Assembly (NCBI RefSeq): GCF_030499575.1
Contig: NZ_JASTLC010000001.1
Location: 3,806,001 to 3,870,000 of the forward strand
Length of the DNA: 64,000 nucleotides
Source: Streptomyces sp. DG2A-72
GTDB taxonomy: Bacteria; Actinomycetota; Actinomycetes; Streptomycetales; Streptomycetaceae
Direction: 5' to 3'
Part shown: positions 2,362 through 17,597 of the stretch, one piece after another
How the letters are laid out: every line of letters begins with the position of its first letter
Numbering within the stretch: the stretch's first letter is position 1
Program-made: the position numbers and the translations under genes
The notes under the pieces: model-generated
Told to the model about the DNA's origin: nothing
The model's database searches: none
What the model saw: the letters and a program-made list of their open reading frames with translations, nothing else

Positions 2362-5300
2362 ATGTTGTGCAGAGCACTGGCGAAGGCATGGGCGGACACG
2401 GTCCGGATTCCCGGAGTCGCCGAAGACGGTCTACCCGACGCCCGCACCTGGGTCGCCGAGCTGACGCTGCTGGGCAATCCACAGGCGGTGTACGACAAGG
2501 TAAGCCGCAGCCACCCCAGTTGGCGCGCGGCCGGCACGCTCGCGCTGCTGCTCAGTGCGCGGGACGCGATGGCCCGGGGCGAGGAGCCCACCCCGCCGGT
2601 CGAGGGGGCGGGGGAACTGCTCCTCCTCGTCCTCGCCTCGCCCGACGCCTCGGAGAAGTCCGTGTGGACCAGCGCCGTCCGGGGGATCATCCTGGGCTAC
2701 GACCTTTTCATGGGCCACGGTTACTTCCTCATCGGCGCCACTCACCACCTCGAACGGGAGCGGGAAGCCCACCGCACCTATCAACTGGCGGCCCGCGAGT
2801 ACGCCACCGGCAGGTCCCAGGGCGCCGTGATCCTGGCCGCCCTCGCCCGGCTGGCCGCCGCGATCACCCGGCCCGACCTCGACACGGGGGCCCGCGACCC
2901 CGGGGTCCGCACCGCCCTCACCGAACTGGCGAACCTGGATGCCTCGGTGGTGGCCGGGCTGGAGCGGGCCTGGGAGAGCCACCTGGCGGAGCGAGGAGCG
3001 GCCGTACCGCGCATACCCGTGCGGGACCGGGCTCAGCCGTCGGCTCAACTCCCGTCTCCCGCAAGGCCGGTACGACCTTCGACGCCGTCCCCGGCCGCCG
3101 CGGAGGAAGTCCAGCGCGGGGCCGAGTTGCACAAGGCCGACCAGCTCGGGAAAGACGCGCTGGCCTCGCTCCGGAACGTCCCGCGCGCCCTGGAGCTCGC
3201 CAGGGAGGCTGACCGCATCGCGGCCGAGCACGGCCGGAAACCCACCGTGCTGGCCGCACTTGGCGACGAGTTGGTGCGTCGACGTGCCTGGGCGGAGGCC
3301 TACACCGTGCTGGAGGAGCGGCGGCGCGTCCAGCCGGCGGACCGGAAGGTCGTCCACCTGATGGCCCGTTGCCGCTTCGAGCGCGGGCTGTACTTCGCGG
3401 GCCGGAAGTTGCTGACCGATCTGCTCGGGCAACCGCCGGGGCCGGAGGACGTGGAGACGCTCACGTTCCTGTGCACCATCGCGGTCGGGCTCGGTGGTGA
3501 TCCTGAACTCGGCCGCTGGAAAGAGGAGTTGAAGCGGCTCGACCCCCTCCAGGAACCCCTCCCGGACAGGCTGACCACGCCCCGCACACCCCGGACGAAG
3601 ATCCACGTCGACCGGGGTGCCGACGCCGACAACAGGAACCGGCCCGCGCGCCGGGGCGGCTTCGACCCGACCGGCATGTCCCAGGACGAGTTCCAGGCCA
3701 ACTTCCTCGCGTCGTTCGTCGAATGGCTCCCCGAAGAGCAGCGCGCCGAGGCGACGCGGGACCTCACCAGGGACGATCCCGAGCTGACGGCCGAGGTGGG
3801 GCGGCTGCGGGACCGCAGTCGGGCCGAGGAACACTTCAAGGCGGGCGAAAGGTACTTCGGCACGGGCCGGTTGGACGACGCCGAGCGTGAGTACGAGGCG
3901 GCGATCGCGCTCGACCCCGACCACGGTTACGCCTGGCACTGCCTCGGAGACGTCTGGTACCTGCGCCGGAAGTACGACCTGGCCCAGGCGTACTGCGAGG
4001 AGTCCGTCGCCATCCAGCCCAGCGCGCAGGGGCTGTGGCTGATCGGCGAGTGCCTGCGCAACGGCGGGGCAGGGGCTCACCGCGCTCGCGCGTACTACCA
4101 GAAGGCCCTCGAACTGGACCCGGACTACGGGGCCGCGCGCAAGGCCCTCGCCGAACTCGACAGGACGAACCCGCCCCGACCGTTCGGCAGGCAGGGACGG
4201 CTGGAGGGCTCCCTGGACGCCGAGGGCGTCCTCCGCGCCCTGGGAATCATCAGCGGACCCCGCAAGTCGGGCCGGGCGAAAGGCAGTTCACGCCCTGTCA
4301 GCTCTGGTGATCCCGGCAGCGGCCACGGCGGCAGACTCGTCTCGGCCGCACAGGACAACGATCCTGACGGCTTCGCCCAGGTCGCCGAGGACAACGACCG
4401 CACCGCCGCCTGGATCGCCGCCGCGTCGCCCGACGCACTGTTCCAGGCCATCTTGCAGGCGATGACCATCGGTTACCACTACCAGATCAAGGACCGGGAC
4501 CACACCCGCTGGACCCTGTGGGCCGAACGGCAGCTCCAGCTCGCCCGAGCCCTGCCCAGGGATCTCGCCCCGGCCCCGCGTCGCCTCGGCCTCGGCCGTG
4601 ACCGCCTGCTAGCCGACGCCTACGCGGTGGTCGCGGCCGTACGGACCGCCGAGCACCGGCTGCCGGAAGCCAAGGCCTGTCTCCTCCAGGCCCGGGAACT
4701 GCTCCTCGCGGACGAGGCCGCGATGCGGGCCGCCGGGATCACCGAGAGCGAGTACGACCGGCTGTTCTCGCAGACCAGCCCGCACGCCTCGACCCTGCAC
4801 AGCCTCGCCACCGTGTGCGACCGGCTCGGCGATCGGGCCGCCTGCCTGACGTACACCCGCGAGGCGCGTGCGGCGGAGGCGGCGCACCCCACCACCGGCA
4901 CCCAGGTCGACACCCTCGCCGCCGTCAGTCATATCGCCCTAGAACGGGGCATGACGGACGATGGTATCGGCGCGATCCAGGAGGCCGTCTACCTCGCCGA
5001 GGACGAGAATCCCCGGCTCGTGCTGCCGTACACGCTGATCAGGGCGCTCACCATGCTCGGCCGGACCAGGCACCGGCTCGGTTTCCACCGCAGCGCCCTC
5101 GCCTGCTTCGTGCGTGCCCGGGAGCTCGATCGGACCGGCAACTCCGCCCGGCTGTCGGCAAACCACTTCGACATCGCCCGGGTGCTGCGGGCCCGCCCCG
5201 ACATCGGCGAGGCCCTGGGCGGCGACGCCCGCCACCATCTGGAACAGGCCGTCATCCACGCGAGTGTCCCGCAGGAGGGGAGCACCGCCACCCCGCTCGA

Positions 5301-6918
5301 CTGGACCGCCTCCGACGGCACCCGCCACCGTGTCATCGACACCGCGGACGCCACCCCCGCACTCCTCGAACTCGCCGGTCTGCTCCAGGAATCGGGGGAA
5401 TACGACACCGCCGTACACCTTCTGACCATGGTTACCGATGCCGCCGTACAACTGCGCGCGAAAGCCGCCGACCCCGAGCAGCGCATCGCCGTACAGAACG
5501 AGCAGATGGCCGCCTTCACCCAGCTGACCCGGCTGCACTTCCGGCGTGCCGCCGAGGGCGATCCCGGCTCGCACGCGCGCGCCGCCTGGGCCGCCCACGA
5601 GTCCATGCGGGCCCGCACCTTCCTCGACACCCTCGGCGAGGGCGACCTGCCCGCACCGGCCGGCGTCCCGCGCGAACTCGTGGCGCGCGAGGCGACCCTG
5701 CTGGCCCGGCGGCGCAGGCTGCGCGGCCTGCCGGGGGACCGCAGCCCGGCGTTCTGGGACTCCTACCGCGAGATCGAGGGCGAACTGGACGACCTGTGGG
5801 CCCAGGTGCTCCGTCGGGCCCCGTCCGCCGCGGACTACGTCCAGGTACGGCAGGGCAGTCCGGCCGACCCCGCCGACATCGCCCGCCGCCTGGCGACGGG
5901 CGCGGACGACGGTCGTACGGTCGTCCTGGCGAGCCTTGTCCTCCTCGACGACCACACGCTGGGCGTGATCGCGCTGCGCTCCGACGGCACGGGGCCGGTG
6001 CTGCGCAGCCGGGCAGCCGACGTCCGCGAACTGGGCGGGTTCGTACGGCAGAACTTCGGCGCCGCCGACCGGGTGCGGCTGCTCGCCACCGACGCGGAAG
6101 ATCTCTTCCAAGCCCAACTCGCCCCGGTCCGCGAGCTGTTGACGAGCGTCTGTGACCCCGGTGAGCGGCTGCTCGTCTGCCCCACGGGTTTTCTGCACCA
6201 CGTCCCGCTCGGCGCCGTCCGCACCGGAGGGCGGGGCGGCGAAGTCCTGCTGGAGCGCAACCCCTTGGGCGTCCTGCCCAGCGGCTCCTTCCTGCGCGGC
6301 CGGGACGGGAGCGGTCACGACCGGACGGGCCTCCGGGGGCCCCACGGCATACAGATCTTCGGCGATCCCACCGGAGACCTCCCCGGCGCCCGGAAGGAAG
6401 CCCAACTCCTCGCCCGGACACCGGGATCCCGGCTCACCCTGGGGTCCGGGGCCACCGTCGACGTCGTCCGCCGCGCGCTCACCGGGTCCTCGGTGCTGCA
6501 TCTCGCCGCGCACGCCCGCTTCGATCCCGACGATCCGCTCGGCTCGGGCGTCCTGCTGGCCGGGGGCGGCGTCCTCACCGCGCGGGACGTGATCCGCTTG
6601 CGTGCCCCGGACCTCTCCCTGGTGACGCTGTCCGCCTGCGAGACCGGCGTGAGCGCGACCGATGCCGCCGACGAACTCATGGGTCTGCCCAGGGCGTTGC
6701 TGTTCGCCGGGGCGGACTCGGTGGTCGCCGGGCTGTGGAAGGTGCCGGACGATGCCACGGTGACGATCATGCGGGCGTTCTACGACGGGATCGGCCGCCA
6801 GGGTCTCGCCAGGATCGACGCCCTGCGCGCCGCCGCCCTGGAGGCGAGGGAGCAGGAGCGCGACCCGGCGCGGTTCGACCGCTGGGCCGGATTCCAACTG
6901 GTCGGCGCCTGGCAGTGA
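2362..6918 (+). CDS. TPR-CHAT domain protein (caspase-like protease)
   Basis: 1518 residues. The first ~470 residues are helical and include a charged linker near 230. TPR units follow at roughly 487-600 (HFKAGERYFGTGRLDDAERE, then ALELDPDYGAARKALAEL). Helical repeats continue to about residue 1130, and a CHAT domain fills the last ~350 residues. The CHAT catalytic dyad is visible: HLAAHA with His1384 and SACETG with Cys1426, followed by the DELMGLPRALLFAG and WKVPDDAT motifs of the family. CHAT proteases are caspase relatives used in bacterial defence and conflict systems (for example the TPR-CHAT of type III-E CRISPR and gasdermin-activating proteases). The protein is probably cytoplasmic, with no signal or membrane segment. 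It leads a three-gene operon, the next gene starting 32 bp downstream. ATG at 2362 is the first in-frame start; RBS is weak, so the start is uncertain. Confidence 0.88.
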   Translation: MLCRALAKAWADTVRIPGVAEDGLPDARTWVAELTLLGNPQAVYDKVSRSHPSWRAAGTLALLLSARDAMARGEEPTPPVEGAGELLLLVLASPDASEKSVWTSAVRGIILGYDLFMGHGYFLIGATHHLEREREAHRTYQLAAREYATGRSQGAVILAALARLAAAITRPDLDTGARDPGVRTALTELANLDASVVAGLERAWESHLAERGAAVPRIPVRDRAQPSAQLPSPARPVRPSTPSPAAAEEVQRGAELHKADQLGKDALASLRNVPRALELAREADRIAAEHGRKPTVLAALGDELVRRRAWAEAYTVLEERRRVQPADRKVVHLMARCRFERGLYFAGRKLLTDLLGQPPGPEDVETLTFLCTIAVGLGGDPELGRWKEELKRLDPLQEPLPDRLTTPRTPRTKIHVDRGADADNRNRPARRGGFDPTGMSQDEFQANFLASFVEWLPEEQRAEATRDLTRDDPELTAEVGRLRDRSRAEEHFKAGERYFGTGRLDDAEREYEAAIALDPDHGYAWHCLGDVWYLRRKYDLAQAYCEESVAIQPSAQGLWLIGECLRNGGAGAHRARAYYQKALELDPDYGAARKALAELDRTNPPRPFGRQGRLEGSLDAEGVLRALGIISGPRKSGRAKGSSRPVSSGDPGSGHGGRLVSAAQDNDPDGFAQVAEDNDRTAAWIAAASPDALFQAILQAMTIGYHYQIKDRDHTRWTLWAERQLQLARALPRDLAPAPRRLGLGRDRLLADAYAVVAAVRTAEHRLPEAKACLLQARELLLADEAAMRAAGITESEYDRLFSQTSPHASTLHSLATVCDRLGDRAACLTYTREARAAEAAHPTTGTQVDTLAAVSHIALERGMTDDGIGAIQEAVYLAEDENPRLVLPYTLIRALTMLGRTRHRLGFHRSALACFVRARELDRTGNSARLSANHFDIARVLRARPDIGEALGGDARHHLEQAVIHASVPQEGSTATPLDWTASDGTRHRVIDTADATPALLELAGLLQESGEYDTAVHLLTMVTDAAVQLRAKAADPEQRIAVQNEQMAAFTQLTRLHFRRAAEGDPGSHARAAWAAHESMRARTFLDTLGEGDLPAPAGVPRELVAREATLLARRRRLRGLPGDRSPAFWDSYREIEGELDDLWAQVLRRAPSAADYVQVRQGSPADPADIARRLATGADDGRTVVLASLVLLDDHTLGVIALRSDGTGPVLRSRAADVRELGGFVRQNFGAADRVRLLATDAEDLFQAQLAPVRELLTSVCDPGERLLVCPTGFLHHVPLGAVRTGGRGGEVLLERNPLGVLPSGSFLRGRDGSGHDRTGLRGPHGIQIFGDPTGDLPGARKEAQLLARTPGSRLTLGSGATVDVVRRALTGSSVLHLAAHARFDPDDPLGSGVLLAGGGVLTARDVIRLRAPDLSLVTLSACETGVSATDAADELMGLPRALLFAGADSVVAGLWKVPDDATVTIMRAFYDGIGRQGLARIDALRAAALEAREQERDPARFDRWAGFQLVGAWQ

Positions 6919-6950
6919 CCTGCGCAGGCCACGCACACGCACAACAAGGT

Positions 6951-7739
6951 ATGGAGCGGACCGAAGTGACAGTGACCGAGCACGAGTTCACCTACAGCGT
7001 GGAACTCGACCTCGATGCCGACCACGAGGAAATGGGGATGTTACGGGAGGCTGCGCCGACCCCGGGGACGGGATCCTTGTCCCGCGTGGCCGCCCCTGAG
7101 CAGTCCCTCTGGGGCGTCGACCAGCCCCCCGTGGTCGTGAGCGACGAGGACCTCAGATTCCTGCGCCGCGAGAACCGGATGGCCGTCGCCCGCGCCGCTC
7201 CCACCAAGGTGGAGAGCACCGACCTGCCGCCCGGCACCGCCGCCTACCACGTACCGCTGCTCTTCGTCCTGCACGCGCACCCTGAGTGCGCGTTCACCTA
7301 CGCCCGACTCCAGGTGGACCTCACGCCGACCCCGGGCAGCACCGTCATCGACATGTCGCCGCGCGAGGTGCAGGAGCTGCCGATGGAGATCGAGAGCCGA
7401 CGGGTCGTCGGGCTGTCCTTCAAGGCCGTGCCGAGCGTCTTCGACCTCAGCACCTCGCACGAGCAGGCGCTGACGCAGACCATGTACGTGCCCACGCTGA
7501 CGACCTCCGGCGTCGGCTTCACCAAGGCCTGCTGGGACTTCTACCCCAGGTCCGGCTATCTCCACGCCGACCAGGAACTCCACATCCTGCTGCGCGCCCC
7601 GGCCGACACCCCCGTCCTCGCCGGTCTCACCGTCCGCGCCAAGGTCACCCGGCGCGGCCGTAAGGGCGGATTCCCCCTGCTCGCCAGAGTCCGGGACCTG
7701 CACAGGCCCGTTCACCTGGCCGGGCCCGAACCAGTCTGA
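6951..7739 (+). CDS. Unrecognised protein encoded between TPR-CHAT and TPR genes
   Basis: 262 residues from the ATG at 6951, placed 32 bp after the CHAT gene; the open frame extends upstream inside that gene but coding there belongs to the other frame. No signal peptide or membrane helix. The middle (HVPLLFVLHAHPECAFTYARL onward) alternates hydrophobic and polar residues like a beta-sandwich, and the end (TVRAKVTRRGRKG) is basic. I do not recognise the family. Because it is locked between a protease and a TPR protein, it could be the protease's substrate, adaptor or sensor; that is inference from context only. Confidence 0.75.
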   Translation: MERTEVTVTEHEFTYSVELDLDADHEEMGMLREAAPTPGTGSLSRVAAPEQSLWGVDQPPVVVSDEDLRFLRRENRMAVARAAPTKVESTDLPPGTAAYHVPLLFVLHAHPECAFTYARLQVDLTPTPGSTVIDMSPREVQELPMEIESRRVVGLSFKAVPSVFDLSTSHEQALTQTMYVPTLTTSGVGFTKACWDFYPRSGYLHADQELHILLRAPADTPVLAGLTVRAKVTRRGRKGGFPLLARVRDLHRPVHLAGPEPV

Positions 7740-7748
7740 GAGCCGGAC

Positions 7749-8771
7749 GTGTTCGACGAGTACGTACACGATCCCGCGGCCCTGCGCGCCATGGACCGAC
7801 TTATCGTCCGGATGGACAGCCGGCGCCTCGACTTCGACCGTGGTCTGGCGTTCGACCAGCAGGCCCTGCGCGATGCCGACCTGGTCCTGCGGGCGGCGCG
7901 TGGCACGCCGGTCGAGGGGCCGACCGCGGTCATGGTCGCCGGAATCCACTATCTGCGGTTCATCGATCTGCCCCAGGCGGAGGGCCAGGCATCCCTGGAG
8001 GCGGCGGTCGCGCTGACCGTGCCCTACGCCCGCCACGATCCACGGATCCGGAGTCTCCTCAAGGGGTTCGCCCAGACCGCCCCGGAGCTGCTTCCCCCTG
8101 ATCTGCGCGCACAACTGCACACCCCGGGGATGACCTTCGGCAAGTTCAAGACCAACTCCGCGGCGGACATCCTTAAGCGGGCCAAGCCCACGTCCGCCGG
8201 CGACCCGGGACTGCGGTACGCCATCACGCTGTTCCGGCACGCCCTCGACGACCTCTCCGCGACTCCGGCCGATCGCGCCGACACGCTCAACCAGCTGGCC
8301 ATGGCCTACGAGAAGCGGCAGGAACTGTCCGGTGCCGTCACCGACATGGAGCCGGTGATCCGCACCTGGCGGGAGGCGGTGGCGACCGTGCCCACCGGGA
8401 CGCAGGAGCACGCCATCTACCTCCACCGGTTGAGCGCCGCCCTGGAGAAACGCTTCGAACTGCGCTCGGACCCGGCCGACCTGGACGAGTCGGTGACGAC
8501 CGCCCGCGCGGCCTGCGAGGCCGTAGCCCGAAGTCACTGGCTCGTCCCGATGTTCCGGAACAACCTCAGTCTCGCGCTGTGCCGCCGGGGGAACGCCGCA
8601 GACCTGGACGAGGCCGTGACCGCCGCCCGTACCGCGCTCAGCGCGGCAGGCCCCGACCACAAGGCGATCACCCTGTTCCGCACCACTCTGACCAAGGCCT
8701 TGCACGCCCGTTTCAGGAACACCGGAGACTGGCGCGACCTGCGGGAGGCGATGCGCCTGGACGGAGCGTGA
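7749..8771 (+). CDS. TPR-like helical repeat protein, third gene of the CHAT operon
   Basis: 340 residues starting at GTG, 9 bp after the preceding stop, so translationally close-coupled. The C-terminal half holds repeats of the type LEKRFELRSDPADLDESV and FRNTGDWRDLREAM. Streptomyces proteins with this RF-x-TGD-x-x-DLDEA repeat are often fused to a CHAT domain; here the repeats are on a separate chain. The first 150 residues (FDQQALRDADLVLRAARG and following) are helical. It probably binds the CHAT protein or its trigger. No catalytic motif is visible. Confidence 0.75.
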   Translation: MFDEYVHDPAALRAMDRLIVRMDSRRLDFDRGLAFDQQALRDADLVLRAARGTPVEGPTAVMVAGIHYLRFIDLPQAEGQASLEAAVALTVPYARHDPRIRSLLKGFAQTAPELLPPDLRAQLHTPGMTFGKFKTNSAADILKRAKPTSAGDPGLRYAITLFRHALDDLSATPADRADTLNQLAMAYEKRQELSGAVTDMEPVIRTWREAVATVPTGTQEHAIYLHRLSAALEKRFELRSDPADLDESVTTARAACEAVARSHWLVPMFRNNLSLALCRRGNAADLDEAVTAARTALSAAGPDHKAITLFRTTLTKALHARFRNTGDWRDLREAMRLDGA

Positions 8772-8787
8772 TCCGTAAGCGCATTCA

Positions 8788-8961
8788 TCACCGCCCTGGA
8801 GGATCACCGCGCACCACGCCCAGAACGTGTCGTACGCAACCCACCGCAAGGGCAACTGCGGCGACCGCAGATACGAGGATGGCCCCAAGCGCCACCGTCA
8901 CACCGGCTGAAATCATTGTTGCAATCACGATGACGGTCCACCACGGCGCGTCGGACTCCAT
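8788..8961 (-). CDS. Possible small membrane protein (57 aa)
   Basis: A short frame begins ATG at 8961 with GGGGGG five to ten bases upstream and ends TGA at 8788. The product MESDAPWWTVIVIATMIS and the following residues form one long hydrophobic stretch (TVIVIATMISAGVTVALGAI) and a second (SAVAAVALAVG), so a one- or two-helix membrane protein. It overlaps the tail of the acyltransferase frame on the same strand in another phase, and both cannot be wholly correct. No known family. Confidence 0.45.
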   Translation of the reverse strand: MESDAPWWTVIVIATMISAGVTVALGAILVSAVAAVALAVGCVRHVLGVVRGDPPGR

Positions 8962-10351
8962 AGCGCACCCCCCAGCCGATCATGAGTACCAGGCAGGACG
9001 CCGGGCTGTGGACGATGGTTCCGCGGGCTCGATCACTGGGCGATGTGCATCGTGAAGTCGCAGGGCGGTGGGGTGTGAGGGGCGGCAGGGAAGATCGGGC
9101 CAGTCTCCGGCCCCATCTCTGCCCCGGCGCCTCGACATAGCGGTACGTCAGCACGCACAGCGGCAACAGCACGACGTAGAAGGCCACTTCGAGTACGAGG
9201 TCGTCGTGCGGCCGGCGTCCGATCGTGCCGTCGCTCACCGCCAGCAGCAGTGGATGGACGAGGTAGACCGAGTAGCTGATCGTGCCGAGTCCCGTCAGGA
9301 GGCGGGGGATGTGTCGGTGGCGCAGCGTCAGGCCTGCCGCGAAGGTGAACACGGCCAGGAGGAGGGCCAGGGTCCAGCCGCGGGGTGTGAAGTTGTCCCC
9401 GCCCATGTCCCCGCCCGTGTCCCCGTCGCCGTACGCACTTCCGACCGCGCAGGCGACCACCACGACGGCCGCGCACGCCACGTATGACCACTTGCTCTGG
9501 CCGGTGTCGGCCCGGTACACCGCCGTACCGAGGAACATCACGGCGAGGATCACCAGGCCTTCCCACACCGGGACCGTGCCGTTGAAGGCGACCAGGAGCA
9601 GTGTGAGGACGCCGCCCAGCACGCCCCCGAACATCCGCAGCGCCGCCGATCCGGTGCTCGCGCAGCAGATGGCGATCGCCATCACGACCGAGGCGAGCGC
9701 GATCAGCGGGCCGGTGCCGAGTGCGTCGGAGAGGAAAGAGACCGGCAGCGCGAGCCCTGCCGTCACGCTCAGGGCGGCGACCGCCGCCAGGGTGACGGCC
9801 ACCGCGACGGAACGCCGGTGCAGGCGGACCGTGAAGAGAGCGACGACCAAGAGGTAGAAGGCCATCTCGTACGAGAGCGTCCACAGGACGAGCAGGAGAT
9901 TGGGTGTGCCCAACAGCTCCTGGAACAGCGTGAGATGGGCCGCGGCCACCGAGGTGACGCTCTGTCCGCCGAAGTCCCGGATCTCCGCCACGCCCAGCGC
10001 CCCGGCTGCCAGTGCGCCGGTGACGACGGCCGCCCACAGGGGGTAGATGCGGAAGACGCGGCCGGTCCAGAACGTCCGTACGCAGCCTCGGCGTTCCAGC
10101 GATGCGGGGATGATGTAGCCGCTCACCAGGAAGAACACCAGGATGCCGTAGCGGCTGGTGTTGAACTCCGGCATCAACTCCCGTCGGAACTCCGCCATGA
10201 AGGAGTACGACGAGTGGTCGAACACCACGACCAGCGCCGCGATGCCGCGCAACGCGTCCAGCCAGCCGAGCCGCGACGGACTGGGCGGACGAGACAAACC
10301 GGGCAGTCCTGACGTGGGTAATCGGGGCGACTCGGAGAGTGAGGGCTTCAT
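8804..10351 (-). CDS. Acyltransferase 3 family membrane protein, C-terminus uncertain
   Basis: 515 residues as read. After ~30 residues comes LGWLDALRGIAALVVVFDHSSY, the AT3 signature with the catalytic HDR-region histidine, then about ten membrane helices ending TISYSVYLVHPLLLA and YRYVEAPGQRWGRRLAR. The family O-acylates sugars or lipids at the membrane. ATG at 10351 follows GAGAAGGG; the longer upstream frame is not supported. The last ~90 codons after RRLARSS are Arg/Pro/Cys-rich and unlike the family, and overlap a small membrane frame at 8788-8961. A neighbouring frame stops at 9033. A lost or gained base near 9050-9110 would explain this. Confidence 0.8.
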   Translation of the reverse strand: MKPSLSESPRLPTSGLPGLSRPPSPSRLGWLDALRGIAALVVVFDHSSYSFMAEFRRELMPEFNTSRYGILVFFLVSGYIIPASLERRGCVRTFWTGRVFRIYPLWAAVVTGALAAGALGVAEIRDFGGQSVTSVAAAHLTLFQELLGTPNLLLVLWTLSYEMAFYLLVVALFTVRLHRRSVAVAVTLAAVAALSVTAGLALPVSFLSDALGTGPLIALASVVMAIAICCASTGSAALRMFGGVLGGVLTLLLVAFNGTVPVWEGLVILAVMFLGTAVYRADTGQSKWSYVACAAVVVVACAVGSAYGDGDTGGDMGGDNFTPRGWTLALLLAVFTFAAGLTLRHRHIPRLLTGLGTISYSVYLVHPLLLAVSDGTIGRRPHDDLVLEVAFYVVLLPLCVLTYRYVEAPGQRWGRRLARSSLPPLTPHRPATSRCTSPSDRARGTIVHSPASCLVLMIGWGVRYGVRRAVVDRHRDCNNDFSRCDGGAWGHPRICGRRSCPCGGLRTTRSGRGAR

Positions 10352-10432
10352 CACCCTTCTCACGAGCCGCCCTTCTTCCGTGTTCAGCTGGAGTCTTCCC
10401 TGTTCAGCCGGAGACAGAAGCAGGGCCCCGGC

Positions 10433-10451
10433 CCCGGGCTTGTGGCCCGGG
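10433..10451 (-). terminator. Hairpin after the small secreted peptide gene
   Basis: Perfect 7-bp arms CCCGGGC/GCCCGGG around a 5-nt loop, 40 bp after the stop of the reverse-strand peptide gene and before the acyltransferase start. Probably a factor-independent terminator of the GC-rich actinomycete type without a strong U tract. Just beside it, 10381-10414 carries two direct copies of TGTTCAGC(T/C)GGAG 20 bp apart. Confidence 0.5.
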
Positions 10452-10493
10452 TGCCGAGACCCGTTGCGGTGAGCTACCAGTGTCGGATCGCCG

Positions 10494-10748
10494 CTAGTGG
10501 CCGTGGCCGCAGCTGGAGCCGACGTGCTGGTGTTGCCCGCCCGCGTTGCCTTCGCCGTTGATCGCGTTGCCCAGGAGGCCGTTGAGGAGGCCAACCTGGC
10601 CAAGGAGGCCGACGTTCAAGTCGTGAGACTTGCAGCCTCCACCGCCGTACATGACGGGCGCGCTCTGGGCGGTCGCGGTGCCGGTGGCTATGCAGCTGAA
10701 CGTACCCATCATGGCGGCCGCAACAGCGGCCTTCTGAAGCTTGCGCAT
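10494..10748 (-). CDS. Small secreted Gly/His/Cys-rich peptide
   Basis: 84 residues with a classic Sec signal peptide (MRKLQKAAVAAAMMGTFSC..., cleavage expected after TATAQ near residue 28). The mature ~56 residues read GGGGCKSHD, a hydrophobic NVGLLGQVGLLNGLLGN core, and GGQHQHVGSSCGHGH. The two mature cysteines (GGGGC and SSCGHGH) could form a disulfide; the His-rich end suggests metal binding. The hydrophobic core recalls chaplin-like surface peptides but it is not a clear chaplin. A strong AGGAGG RBS precedes the ATG at 10748. Family function unknown. Confidence 0.75.
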   Translation of the reverse strand: MRKLQKAAVAAAMMGTFSCIATGTATAQSAPVMYGGGGCKSHDLNVGLLGQVGLLNGLLGNAINGEGNAGGQHQHVGSSCGHGH

Positions 10749-10840
10749 GTCTCCTCCTTGCGTGAGTAGAGCGCACCATCAAAAGATCCACTTTGCGCTC
10801 GTATCGGAGGCTAATCCGATATCTCCCACGGCGCTCTTCG

Positions 10841-10880
10841 GAGCTGCCATACGGGGCGCGGAGCTGCCATACGGGGCACG
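10841..10880. repeat. 20-bp tandem duplication
   Basis: Two adjacent 20-bp copies, GAGCTGCCATACGGGGCGCG and GAGCTGCCATACGGGGCACG, differing at one base. They sit in the gap between the DUF4037 gene end and the upstream side of the secreted-peptide gene. No function evident. Confidence 0.9.
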
Positions 10881-10949
10881 GGACACGCCCGAACCGGCTA
10901 CATCGGCCCCTTCCAGGGCCCTGGCTGATAACCCCTCACCCTTCACCGC

Positions 10950-12056
10950 TCACCGCGGCTTTCTCATCACGTCGCTCATGGCCCGCGTCAGTTCCGGTCG
11001 CGTCAGGACGTCCGTGCTGTCCATGAACTGGTCCGCCGACCCGACGGCCGGCAGGTCCCGGAGGGTGGGGTCGGTGATGCGGGCGCTCAGGGCGCGGGCG
11101 AAGCGTTCGGCGTGCAGGACGCGGAAGGGCCTGGAGTGGTACGGGCGGGTGGTCGGGTCCACGCGGTGGGTGAGGTCGAGCTGGTTGTGGATGCCGGCGA
11201 CGATCTCGTAAGCCTGCGCGAGGTGCCGTTCGCGGGTGTGCCAGTCCGTGGCCGCGAGGGCGGCGGTCAGGACGGGGGTGAGGCGGGGGGCCGCGTGGGT
11301 GCGGGCGAAGGCGCTGCCGAGCCATTTGGCGTACGGCGGGTAGCGGCGGTCCATGAGGAGGCACAGCCGCATCAGGTCACGGACGAGGCGGGCGGCGACG
11401 ACGGCGGAGCCGAGTTCGTCGCCGACTTCGCCGCAGCGGCCGACGAAGGCCTCTTCCTGGGAGATGCGCTGCCATTGGCAGGCCAGGACGTGGAGCCAGA
11501 CGTCGTGCGGGTACCAGCGGAGGGTGTGGCGTAAGGGGCCGAGTTCATGGAGGCCGTCGTGGAACACGGCGCCGGCGGTGACCTCGGCGAGGAGCTGGGT
11601 GGGGGTGGCCAGCCAGTCCGTGGGGGTGACGCCCTGCCACGGGTCGAAGCCGAGTTCGTCGGTGAACCAGGCGGCGCGATGGGTGACCTCGATGCGGTGG
11701 TGGACCGGTCCGTCGGTTTCCTGCATGACGCGGGTGTCGCCGTCGCCGGTGGGGGCGAAGTGGGTGGGGTAGCCCTCGAAGGTCTTCGGAAGGTGTTCGG
11801 TCAGTACGTGTCTGATGCGGCCGCCGTGCCGGGAGACGTCGCTTCTGCGGAGGAAGAGCTGCAGACGTGGGCCCCATTCGTGGTCCGCCGAGCGGGGGGT
11901 GTCGAAGCCGAGGACTTCCGATCCGCTTCCGATACGGGCGGCGGAGTGCGGGATTCCGGGGGCGGCTTCCTCAAGGAGGGGGCGTACGGCATCTGTGTAG
12001 AAGCGGCGGGAGAGTTCAAGGCCCGGTATGAAAGGTGGCATATTCGTGAAGCTCAT
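10950..12056 (-). CDS. DUF4037 domain protein (nucleotidyltransferase-like)
   Basis: 368 residues from ATG 12056 (GGGGAAGG upstream). The start MPPFIPGLELSRRFYTDAVR and the block GSGSEVLGFDTPRSADHEWGPRLQLFL are typical of DUF4037; GSGSEVLGFDTPRSADHEWG resembles the GS...D-x-D core of nucleotidyltransferase-fold proteins. The middle contains WFTDELGFDP and the helical C-terminus handles the rest. Members are predicted NTases of unknown substrate, sometimes aminoglycoside-like modifying enzymes or toxins. Divergent from the LRR gene. Confidence 0.8.
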   Translation of the reverse strand: MSFTNMPPFIPGLELSRRFYTDAVRPLLEEAAPGIPHSAARIGSGSEVLGFDTPRSADHEWGPRLQLFLRRSDVSRHGGRIRHVLTEHLPKTFEGYPTHFAPTGDGDTRVMQETDGPVHHRIEVTHRAAWFTDELGFDPWQGVTPTDWLATPTQLLAEVTAGAVFHDGLHELGPLRHTLRWYPHDVWLHVLACQWQRISQEEAFVGRCGEVGDELGSAVVAARLVRDLMRLCLLMDRRYPPYAKWLGSAFARTHAAPRLTPVLTAALAATDWHTRERHLAQAYEIVAGIHNQLDLTHRVDPTTRPYHSRPFRVLHAERFARALSARITDPTLRDLPAVGSADQFMDSTDVLTRPELTRAMSDVMRKPR

Positions 12057-12184
12057 GCCGGAGCACCTTCCCCGTCCGCACATGATCGTGCGGAAAAGTT
12101 TCACACCCGCCGCGCGATCGTCGTACGGCATCAAGTCGCCTTGCCCGAAGGGGCGTTGTCAGACCCGTCCGCTAACGTCCCTTC

Positions 12185-14041
12185 ATGACTTCAGGCAACG
12201 GGAACACCGCAGGTCGGCTGGACGAGTTACGCGCGGGCGTGGGGACGGCCACGCCGGTTCAGGCGCGTAAGGCGGTACGGGAACTGGTCCTCGTCGTCGA
12301 CGACGGGGAGGCGCTCGAACTCGCCGTCCGGTACGCCCCTACGGCGGACCTGTCCTCCGAGATGCTGCTGCGGCTGTGGGAGGGGGCCGCCGATCCGGAC
12401 GCGTTCTGTGCCGCCCTGCTCGCGCCCGCGTTCCGCCGCGAAGGACGGACCGAACTGCGGTTGCAGCGGCGCAGTTCGCTGCTGGGCCTGCGGCATCTGA
12501 CCATGCTTCGTACGCTCCACGTCTTGCGGTGCAAGGAGATCACGGACCTCACCGAGGTCGGCGCGCTGAGCGGGCTGACCGAGCTCGATCTGAACGGCTG
12601 TTCGGGCATCGAGGATCTGACGCCGCTCGGCCGGCTCACCGAGCTGGTCCGGCTCAACCTGCACCGGTGCCGGGCCGTGACGGACTTCGCGCCGCTGCTG
12701 ACGCTCGGGCGGCTGCGTGAGCTGGACCTGAGCGTGACCAAGGTGTCCCGGCTGTCCTCCGCCGACGGCTTCGGCCCGGCGTTCCCCGTGCTGGAGAGCC
12801 TGTCGCTGCGAGCGTGCCGTGCCTTCAAGGACGCACGGCAGCTGTCCGGGCTGCAGCGGCTCACCCGTCTCGACCTGGGCCATACGGGTGTCCGCGACCT
12901 GGCGGGCGTACGGGATCTCCCCGCCCTCACCCACCTGGACCTGCGGGACTGCGCACAACTGCGCAGCCTGACCGGCATCGACGCCCTGACGGCGCTGACC
13001 GACCTGGTCCTCGACAACTGCTCCCGCCTCAGCACCCTGCAGGGCCTCGGCGCCCACCCCCGGCTGACCCGGCTCACCATCGCGAAGTGCCCCGAACTGC
13101 GGGACCTGGTCGGGCTGTCGCCGCCGGCCGGCCTGACCGAGCTGACGATCAAGCAATGCGAGCGGCTGACGTCCGTGCGCGGCGTCGGAACGCTGCGCAC
13201 CCTGACGACGTTCAGTGTCACCCTCTGCCCCGCGCTGGAGGACTACGCCGAGCTGAGTTCCCTTCCGTTGCTCAGCCACCTGAAACTGCACGGACTTGAG
13301 CAGCTCCGGGATCTCTCACCGTTCGACGCCGTCCCGGGACTGCGGCAGCTGGACATATGGCACTGCCCGGGACTGACCGACCTCGAAACACTGGGAGACC
13401 ATGGCCAGTTGACCAAGTTGACGGTCGGTGTGTGCGAGAACCTGCGGACACCGGGCAGCCTCACCGGCCTGCCCGCCCTGCGGGAGCTGGAGTTCAACTG
13501 CCGGGCCATGACCGGCCTCGGATGCCTCGGCAATCTCCCCTCACTGAGGAAACTCGAGGTGATCAGCGGCACGTTGGAGAGCATCGACCCCGTGGCCGGG
13601 ACCCCGCTGGTCGAAGTGGCACTCTACGGAGTGGAAGGACTGACGTCCCTCCGCGCCCTGGAGCAGTGCTCCGACCTGCGCGAGCTGACGGTCCACCGGT
13701 GCGACCATGTCGAGGAACTCCCCGTCGGCCCGCACGGCACGCTCTCCCTCGCCTTCCTGGACTGGAAGGACCTGTCACCCCTCACCGGACGTGACAGCAT
13801 CCGCACGCTCCACCTCAACTCCATGAACACACTTCAGGACTTGAGCGCCCTGACCACCCTCCCCGCCCTCGCCCACCTCAGCTTCAACACCGTCTCCGCC
13901 CAGGAGAACTTCGAGACGCTGCTCGAACTGCCGGCCCTGGAGCGGCTCACGATGCCGGGAGGACTGTTCAGGAGGAGAGGGGTGTACGACGCCGTCGTGG
14001 ACGAACTCGCCGCGCGCGGGGTGGCCGTATCGCACGGGTGA
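12185..14041 (+). CDS. Leucine-rich repeat protein
   Basis: 618 residues. After a ~95-residue helical N-terminus come about twenty consecutive LRRs of 22-24 residues, for example LTELDLNGCSGIEDLTPLGR and LRELDLS..., with conserved Leu spacing and a recurring Cys at the asparagine-ladder position. LRR domains are binding platforms; in Streptomyces this type is often fused to NACHT/STAND NTPases but no NTPase motif is present here. No signal peptide, so cytoplasmic. The function is unknown. ATG at 12185 is the first in-frame start, and the only larger frames in the region are antisense. Confidence 0.88.
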   Translation: MTSGNGNTAGRLDELRAGVGTATPVQARKAVRELVLVVDDGEALELAVRYAPTADLSSEMLLRLWEGAADPDAFCAALLAPAFRREGRTELRLQRRSSLLGLRHLTMLRTLHVLRCKEITDLTEVGALSGLTELDLNGCSGIEDLTPLGRLTELVRLNLHRCRAVTDFAPLLTLGRLRELDLSVTKVSRLSSADGFGPAFPVLESLSLRACRAFKDARQLSGLQRLTRLDLGHTGVRDLAGVRDLPALTHLDLRDCAQLRSLTGIDALTALTDLVLDNCSRLSTLQGLGAHPRLTRLTIAKCPELRDLVGLSPPAGLTELTIKQCERLTSVRGVGTLRTLTTFSVTLCPALEDYAELSSLPLLSHLKLHGLEQLRDLSPFDAVPGLRQLDIWHCPGLTDLETLGDHGQLTKLTVGVCENLRTPGSLTGLPALRELEFNCRAMTGLGCLGNLPSLRKLEVISGTLESIDPVAGTPLVEVALYGVEGLTSLRALEQCSDLRELTVHRCDHVEELPVGPHGTLSLAFLDWKDLSPLTGRDSIRTLHLNSMNTLQDLSALTTLPALAHLSFNTVSAQENFETLLELPALERLTMPGGLFRRRGVYDAVVDELAARGVAVSHG

Positions 14042-15957: not shown

Positions 15958-17436
15958 TCACTGGTACGCGACGGCCGACTCGCTGTACTTGCAGTGCGTA
16001 CCGTCCGCGCCCGTCCCCAACGACGTCGGCTCGTCACCGGAGTCGTTGCCCTTGAAGCGCTCGCAGACGGTGATGTCCTTGTCGCCGACGATCGTCACGC
16101 CCGAAAGGGTCGCGGTGTCGCCGAAGTTGGCGTTGACGCCGACGAGGACGTTTCCGGGGGCGGTCGCCTTGACGTTGCTGATGACGATGTGGCGCTGGTA
16201 CTGGGTGGAGCAGTTGCCGCAGGAGCGGACCAGCTTGCCGAAGTCCTCGACCTGGAAGTTCTTGATGGTGAGGGTGCCGGCGCCGTTGAACTGGAGGACC
16301 TTGTCGTCCGCCTTGCGCGCACCGCCGCCGTCGACCACGTACGTCGCCGACGCCGACTTGCCCTTGAAGCTGGCCGCGTCCTCGCCGACGTCCTCCCACC
16401 ACACGTTCTGCAGCGTGCAACTGCCCAGGCAGTGGACGCCGTCGGCGGCCGGTGAGCCGAGGACGACGTTCTTCAGGACCGCGCCGTCGGCGAGTTCGAA
16501 GAGCGGGTCCTGGCCCTCGGACTGGCTGTCGCCGCCGAGGCCGCCGAAGCCGTAGAAGCGGGCGAGGCCGCCGTCGTACGTACCGGAGACCGCGATCGTG
16601 GCCGTGACCGCCTTGTTGCCGGTGGGGGTCGGCCAGGCGCCCAGGGTGGTGCCGCCGGTGGCGGCCGGGGCGGCGGTGGGGGTCTTGGTCGCGGGGGCGG
16701 ATGTGGAGGGTGTGGCCGAGGGGGACTTGGTCGCGGAGGCGGACGGCGACGGGGAGGGCGACTTGGTGGCAGAGGCCGAAGGCGTCGCAGGGGTTGTCGG
16801 CCTCGCGTCCCCCTCCCCCGCCAGCGTCCAGCTCTTCGTGCGCGCCTTGTCACACGAGTTCTGCTGCAGCAGCCCCGCCTTCACATTGAGGCACTTGGCG
16901 CTCTCCGCGTTGACCAGGTGGTACGCGTCCCCGACCGCCGCCGGCTTCCACACCTGCGCGGCACTGCCGTCACACGCCTGCAGCTGTACGGCCTTCCCCG
17001 CCGACTTCGACGCGCCCTTCACCCCGGCGCACAGCGCGCCGTCCGACGACTTGACGGTGAATCCCCCGTCGCTGTCGGCCAGTTGCCAGGTCTGGGCAGT
17101 CTGCTCGGAGCCGGTGTTCGCGCACGCGGCCGTCGCCAGCTGGGTTCCGGCCGCGGTCGACGGTACGGTCACGCAGGTGCTGTCGGCGGCGTTCACCAGG
17201 TGATACGTGTCGGCGCCGGGGCCCGATGCCGACGCCGTCATCAGCACACCGCCGGTGACCGCGCCCGCGCCGAGCGCCATGACCAGGCCGCCGATCAGCA
17301 CTCCCCTGCGGCGGCTCGTCTTCCTGCGCCGTGGCCTGCGCACAGCTGCTCTCTCGCTCACGTCGTCGCTCTCGTTCGGAGGTTCGGAGGGCGGAAGCGG
17401 CCCGCCGAGACAGCCGTGCGCTGCCTTCTGCCGCAT
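15958..17436 (-). CDS. Pectate lyase (PL3-like) with ricin-type lectin domain
   Basis: 492 residues from ATG 17436 (AGGAG nine bases upstream; GTG 17361 is an alternative). Residues ~30-70 are an Arg-rich then hydrophobic signal/anchor (RRRGVLIGGLVMALGAGAV). Residues ~74-208 form a ricin B-like carbohydrate-binding domain with YHLVNAADSTC and YHLVNAESAKC repeats and QTWQLADSDGG. A Thr/Pro/Ser linker covers ~211-266. The last ~225 residues match PL3 pectate lyases: DGVHCLGSCTLQNVWWEDVG and DAASFKGKSA. It is exported and cleaves pectin while the lectin holds plant polymer. A four-copy short repeat lies upstream. Confidence 0.88.
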   Translation of the reverse strand: MRQKAAHGCLGGPLPPSEPPNESDDVSERAAVRRPRRRKTSRRRGVLIGGLVMALGAGAVTGGVLMTASASGPGADTYHLVNAADSTCVTVPSTAAGTQLATAACANTGSEQTAQTWQLADSDGGFTVKSSDGALCAGVKGASKSAGKAVQLQACDGSAAQVWKPAAVGDAYHLVNAESAKCLNVKAGLLQQNSCDKARTKSWTLAGEGDARPTTPATPSASATKSPSPSPSASATKSPSATPSTSAPATKTPTAAPAATGGTTLGAWPTPTGNKAVTATIAVSGTYDGGLARFYGFGGLGGDSQSEGQDPLFELADGAVLKNVVLGSPAADGVHCLGSCTLQNVWWEDVGEDAASFKGKSASATYVVDGGGARKADDKVLQFNGAGTLTIKNFQVEDFGKLVRSCGNCSTQYQRHIVISNVKATAPGNVLVGVNANFGDTATLSGVTIVGDKDITVCERFKGNDSGDEPTSLGTGADGTHCKYSESAVAYQ

Positions 17437-17544
17437 CGGATGCCACTCCTGTGCCACTCCTGCCGCATCAGCCGCCTCTCGGACCGCTTCCGCCCCTTCT
17501 GTTGCCGCAGGAGGGGGAAGGGTTGCCGCGGGGACGAGATTCTT

Positions 17545-17597
17545 TTGCGCGCCGATCTTTGCGCGCCGACCCTGCACGCCGACCTTGCGCGCCGCGG
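17545..17597. repeat. 13-14-bp tandem repeat, four copies
   Basis: The core TGCGCGCCGA(T/C)C begins at 17546, 17560, 17573 (one mismatch) and 17586, i.e. periods of 14, 13 and 13 bp. It occupies the ~180-bp gap between the IMPase gene end and the pectate lyase start, so on the reverse strand it lies in the lyase 5' region. No known operator matches. Confidence 0.85.

Follow-up and report, generated by a model that had tools for sequence, protein, structure and literature searches.

A TPR-CHAT protein of Streptomyces and its partner with a predicted haemolysin-type fold: a possible protease-gated effector pair

What does a bacterial caspase-like protein act upon when a small protein of no recognised family is encoded immediately behind it? 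This question is raised by a locus of the soil bacterium Streptomyces sp. DG2A-72 found in a stretch of 64,000 nucleotides (G000:C1:3806001-3870000), called here the window. Three consecutive genes of the plus strand, designated A, B and C, make up the locus; the comparison locus L001 mentioned below belongs to Streptomyces sp. GESEQ-4.

2362..6918, plus strand: gene A, a 1518-residue TPR protein with a C-terminal CHAT caspase-like domain (open reading frame, ORF; Pfam; same start in L001)
6951..7739, plus strand: gene B, a 262-residue protein with a predicted alpha-haemolysin/leukocidin-type fold (ORF, structural model, fold matches, linkage to CHAT)
7749..8771, plus strand: gene C, a 340-residue TPR protein, accessory (ORF; TPR_10 at its cut-off)

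The gaps of 32 bp between A and B and of 9 bp between B and C, already given in a preliminary description of this DNA, are borne out by the ORF coordinates. We tentatively favour a protease-gated effector pair made up of A and B, possibly a pyroptosis-like switch in which the pore-former is not a gasdermin. The evidence comes from the linkage of B to CHAT genes and from the predicted structure of B.

Judged from the collections searched, B represents a rare family that is linked to CHAT. Among 5.8 billion proteins, a search with one sequence retrieved 16 relatives and a profile search, in which the best 7,995 candidates were scored, retrieved 48; their labels include Streptomyces, Geodermatophilus, Micromonospora, Nonomuraea, Alloactinosynnema, Pseudonocardiaceae and Solirubrobacteraceae. 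A survey of the same genus gave a B match in 11 of 392 genomes, with ten strong loci in ten genomes, that of the window included. Two weak matches, one in G079 and one at another locus of G221, are members of a family more distantly related to B. Samples of the phylum (396 genomes) and of the class (394 genomes) contained B only in the genome of the window. A scan of named genomes added L001 only. A CHAT ORF lies directly 5' of B in all ten strong loci and in L001, in agreement with genome searches using PF12770. The check proposed at the outset, a search for the middle gene apart from any CHAT gene, returned no such case among the ten strong loci of the 392 genomes. The distance between the two genes, with B starts of our own choosing, ranges from -17 to +83 bp in ten fetched loci (L001 and L016-L024), four of which overlap or are 1 bp apart. 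The converse fails: 61 genomes contain 131 CHAT matches (two of them below the cut-off), and only 4 adjoin a B gene, namely in G000, G014, G053 and G054. Over ten loci with B identities of 28-73%, L001 being left out as a near-copy, CHAT and B distances are correlated with r 0.945, a value reached in none of 10,000 permutations; this correlation would fit co-function or joint inheritance alike. By these comparisons the CHAT-B pair has stayed together over a long divergence.

The following features were assigned to A:

3823..4128, plus strand: TPR stretch of A, residues 488-589, containing the best TPRs (Pfam TPR_2, TPR_1 and TPR_8)
6094..6909, plus strand: CHAT domain of A, residues 1245-1516 (PF12770, 183.7 bits, E 6.7e-54)
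6511..6513, plus strand: predicted catalytic His1384, in the LAAHARF motif that starts at residue 1381
6637..6639, plus strand: predicted catalytic Cys1426, in the SACETG motif that starts at residue 1424

The PF12770 match exceeds the curated cut-off of 24 bits and, together with the two motifs, confirms the intact CHAT domain with His1384 and Cys1426 that had been read into A from the start. Each of the 42 CHAT rows aligned has H and C in the two dyad columns. The rows represent 39 distinct genes, of which 26 have no linked B-like gene and keep the dyad all the same, so that the dyad is a trait of the family at large and no special mark of the A-B system. By score and dyad A is assigned to the CHAT protease family, and it presumably has proteolytic activity. 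Membership of type III-E CRISPR was rejected on score: the match of A to the Csx29 family NF041237 reaches 43.1 bits, for a cut-off of 300. As far as its sequence tells, A is a TPR-CHAT protein and is not recognised as a component of type III-E.

The middle protein had been called unrecognised and stays so in Pfam, NCBIfam and PADLOC, where B has no match; no relative was found among PDB chain sequences at E <= 10. Its fold is predicted to be of the alpha-haemolysin/leukocidin type: in the fold search, the matches to pore-formers were stronger and more consistent for the better of two models than for the first, weaker one. The predicted fold shifts the reading of B from the substrate or adaptor of the preliminary description to a probable membrane-acting effector. 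The pre-stem of haemolysin/leukocidin proteins sits in the middle of the sequence, and two features of B deserve a separate entry:

7383..7508, plus strand: mid-sequence hairpin region of B, residues 145-186, candidate pre-stem (model strands, one of them amphipathic)
7083..7085, plus strand: Arg45 of B, a speculative candidate cleavage position in a low-confidence N-terminal linker (R in 46 of 50 aligned relatives)

The strands of the hairpin region are modelled at residues 145-151, 155-161, 173-178 and 182-186, with low confidence at 151-168, and hydrophobic residues alternate with polar or small ones between 145 and 159. The first 30 residues of B members are acidic, with a median net charge of -7 (range -12 to -3). 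No signal-peptide-like or transmembrane stretch was detected by simple hydropathy in the 68 members of the A3 and A4 families, the latter being the distant relatives described below. According to one report, bacterial gasdermins are cut after Leu or Arg near the C-terminus (PMC9612521), which makes Arg45 a candidate site and nothing more. A catalytic or metal site formed by H108, H110 and C113 was also considered and dropped for uneven conservation: in the L018-L021 group of alignment A2, Q replaces H108 and C113 is kept in one of four sequences; in alignment A3, H110 is H in 28 of 50 rows, and H108 and C113 are each kept in 49.

A number of observations weigh against a pore-forming B. The toxin rows of the Foldseek search have TM-scores of only 0.29-0.37 with root mean square deviations of 11-17 Å, the numerous toxin matches are copies of a single fold class, and the second structure aligner merely re-scored Foldseek's own list. 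The weaker first model fitted adaptin-ear sandwiches and TTHA1873 about equally well. No leukocidin Pfam model is found among the matches of 50 B members at E <= 1. The hairpin is the weakest portion of the model; a clean alternation is seen in its first strand alone, core strand 222-235 shows a stronger one, and the return strand is charged and contains Pro181, kept in 49 of 50 members. The evidence for a membrane-inserting stem is hence mixed. The conservation of Arg45 comes from a gappy region of the alignment. As to conflict, 50,697 records of phages and 72,556 of plasmids contained no B relative; PADLOC gave no family for A, B or C, and only chance-level results for the 50 B members (three member matches). 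The viral contig scan likewise contained no B relative, and PHROGs gave matches at chance level only. Gasdermins fared no better: no gasdermin Pfam model appears among the matches of the 50 members at the same threshold, and the gasdermin fold is absent from the 50 fold-match rows listed, which does not exclude it.

The distant family, A4, comprises 19 proteins and was reached from one weak B match; aligned with the B family it covers 131 columns with a probability of 94.2% and an E-value of 1.1e-7 for this single comparison. Its 23 matches in 295 genomes include 14 with a PF12770 match within 2 kb and 9 without. Among the former, the G168 match is itself a B-family gene and that of G196 is separated from CHAT by an intervening ORF. 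Seven of the nine loci without a nearby CHAT match, all but G150 and G096, were characterised further: the A4 gene of G165 precedes an EAD1 protein and that of G055, by eye, a near-identical counterpart of this protein; such a gene is missing in G069 and G180, and the contigs with the A4 genes of G271, G195 and G075 are free of CHAT matches. An EAD1-CHAT fusion is the 3' neighbour of the A4 gene in G058, G236 and G099. From these counts, the B/A4 superfamily would usually, not always, adjoin a caspase-superfamily protein. In the fetched loci L083, L085 and L086, the gene immediately following the A4-family gene encodes an EAD1-CHAT fusion; in the corresponding protein of L080, EAD1 alone is recognisable and the His motif seems to have been lost.

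A tree was built from 39 CHAT domains; 13 have a linked B or A4 gene, and the short flanks of the other 26 contain no match to either family. A branch supported at 100/99 separates the 13 linked rows and 5 unlinked ones from the 21 remaining unlinked rows, and on the linked side the B-linked rows fall into two parts. At four of the five unlinked loci on this side, an open frame downstream of CHAT looks polytopic to the eye, which hints that the slot behind CHAT hosts membrane-acting partners. In another arrangement, L022 encodes in a row, on its reverse strand (6482-11295), a stand-alone CHAT protein of 343 residues, B, a hydrophobic protein of 210 residues that matches nothing in Pfam, and a TPR protein some 795 residues long; sensor and protease thus need not share one chain. 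In L050, L053, L055 and L058, whose CHAT genes form part of a clade neighbouring the B-linked ones, the CHAT stop is followed on its 3' side by an ORF of 168-238 residues and by an open frame of about 294-328 residues that looks polytopic to the eye.

How might such a pair operate? The TPR part of A would sense an infection or stress signal and activate the CHAT domain, a putative protease that would cleave B or otherwise release it. The acidic N-terminal segment of B is the candidate inhibitory part. Once freed, cytosolic B would oligomerise and insert its beta-hairpin into the membrane of its own cell, presumably forming a pore, and the cell would be killed or arrested, possibly in defence. 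C would be a TPR accessory, possibly an adaptor.

Parts of these data fit other explanations. B may be a CHAT substrate that acts as a regulator or signalling protein, comparable to Csx30 of type III-E CRISPR, its beta-sandwich merely resembling haemolysins. A precedent exists in Csx29, a TPR-CHAT protease that cuts a sigma factor inhibitor (PMC10028731), and the low TM-scores, the charged return strand of the hairpin and the lack of any export or membrane segment by hydropathy agree with such a role. We nevertheless hold a regulatory B to be unlikely, if worth keeping in view: the better model of B gives stronger and more consistent matches to pore-formers than the weaker model does, and the polytopic-looking frames at four of the five nearest unlinked CHAT loci suggest a slot for membrane partners. 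Alternatively, B would bind the CHAT protein and control it, as a sensor, an inhibitor or a scaffold, and would not be its substrate. Tight co-divergence and translational proximity suit any stable complex, the cleavage site is only a candidate with a weak signal at Arg45, and CHAT, B and the TPR protein are separate chains in L022; a haemolysin-type fold would be odd for a scaffold, however, and we find this arrangement improbable.

That the unit regulates development or housekeeping in Streptomyces and plays no part in conflict seems most improbable of all. The scans of phages, plasmids and viral contigs without a B relative, and the lack of a PADLOC match, speak for it. The presence of the unit is patchy, with strong matches in 10 of 392 genomes of the genus and in its own genome only within the phylum and class samples, and in this it is unlike a core developmental gene.

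The proposed protease-gated pair can be compared with several known systems. In bacterial gasdermin systems, as here, a protease gene adjoins that of a small cytosolic protein, and a protease-gated perforation of the cell's own membrane has been proposed (PMC9612521). B differs in that its 50 members have no Pfam gasdermin match and its predicted fold is of the haemolysin type; palmitoylation and a C-terminal cut belong to the gasdermin side of the comparison. With the alpha-haemolysin/leukocidin family B shares the predicted fold and the low-confidence hairpin in mid-sequence, but it has no leukocidin Pfam or PDB sequence match, no export signal by hydropathy, and a protease gene at its side. 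The CHAT domain of A matches PDB chains named 'CHAT domain protein' (E 2.7e-7), which we take to be the Craspase entries. Craspase, made of type III-E Csx29 and Csx30, also combines a TPR-CHAT protease with a dedicated partner gene (PMC10028731), whereas A falls below the Csx29 cut-off and no Cas gene occurs among the neighbours run through Pfam. The EAD/caspase conflict systems known from multicellular bacteria (Kaur et al.) resemble the pair as actinomycete caspase-superfamily proteases, and the A4 family adjoins EAD1-CHAT proteins; they differ in that Pfam revealed no MoxR, vWA or STAND ATPase in the ten window ORFs compared with it, namely A, B, C and seven neighbours. PMC10907252, PMC7159879 and PMC8195603 deal with caspase and EAD conflict systems, and the words hemolysin and leukocidin are absent from the main texts of the latter two. 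The literature matches listed include no description of a CHAT and B-type pair; subscription papers lie mostly outside that search, and novelty is not proven. If our reading is right, A-B would work like the bacterial gasdermin systems and share the TPR-CHAT layout of Craspase, the sequence tests for the gasdermin, leukocidin and Csx29 families having failed.

The opening of pores by caspase-like proteases is a theme common to animals, fungi and bacteria and, to our knowledge, has so far been tied to gasdermins. With more doubt than for the pair itself, we suggest a second, gasdermin-independent form of protease-gated self-perforation: acidic-tailed intracellular precursors of haemolysin/leukocidin fold, released by TPR-CHAT or EAD1-CHAT proteases, might constitute an undescribed executioner class of actinomycetes, and secreted haemolysin-type proteins might have an ancestor in common with them. 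Should B prove to form pores, the protease-pore theme would have been reached with an unrelated fold and protease-plus-pore would become testable as a general principle; a major secreted pore-forming family would gain an intracellular fold counterpart, and some of the numerous Streptomyces-type CHAT genes a likely partner.

Gene C is less constant. It had been described as a TPR protein with RF-x-TGD/DLDEA repeats, and this holds insofar as the repeats match TPR arrays; Pfam support is marginal (TPR_10, 27.6 bits for a cut-off of 27.5). The RFxxTGD/DLDEA-type repeats are degenerate, yet such matches occur in 44 of 121 genus genomes, its own included. In genomes G001-G060, 23 distinct frames carry repeats like those of C (one overlapping frame that contains a stop was not counted); judged by coordinates and frame length, 18 of them include a CHAT match as well. 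A match over the full span of C (1-340) is found only in its own genome among the 121, the remainder being shorter repeat matches, the longest in G093 (15-336, 31% identity, a 610-residue frame) and G098 (58-337, 29%). Apart from the window, only the near-identical L001 has C beside A and B; the nine remaining B loci lack it, for which reason a conserved three-gene system was rejected. From the earlier proposal that sensor, protease and substrate or adaptor are spread over three chains, a protease with a dedicated partner gene remains, without a conserved third gene. C is perhaps an adaptor.

Both flanking ORFs with recognised domains lie on the minus strand, one with a RibD_C domain before A (1469-2125) and an acyltransferase behind C (8804-10603), so that A-B-C looks like a single transcription unit. 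The promoter scan gave no promoter-like site, streptomycete promoters being poorly covered by it, and the terminator scan gave one terminator-like site for 1.2 expected. The B relative P0001 begins at the residue equivalent to GTG 6966, just upstream of which stands GGAG, and B may therefore begin there instead of at ATG 6951. The genome of the window measures 10.58 Mb and contains two CHAT matches in total. The L001 proteins are 90% (A), 90% (B) and 84% (C) identical to those of the window. Further downstream, the window encodes a DUF4037 protein (10950-12134, minus strand, E 6.2e-34), by position also found behind C in L001, and a 618-residue LRR protein (12185-14041, plus strand, LRR_4, E 6.9e-35), whose L001 copy is 92% identical and also close behind A-B-C. 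A pectate lyase with ricin-type lectin domains (15958-17577, minus strand, PF03211, E 7.6e-79) has the domains of an ordinary secreted enzyme.
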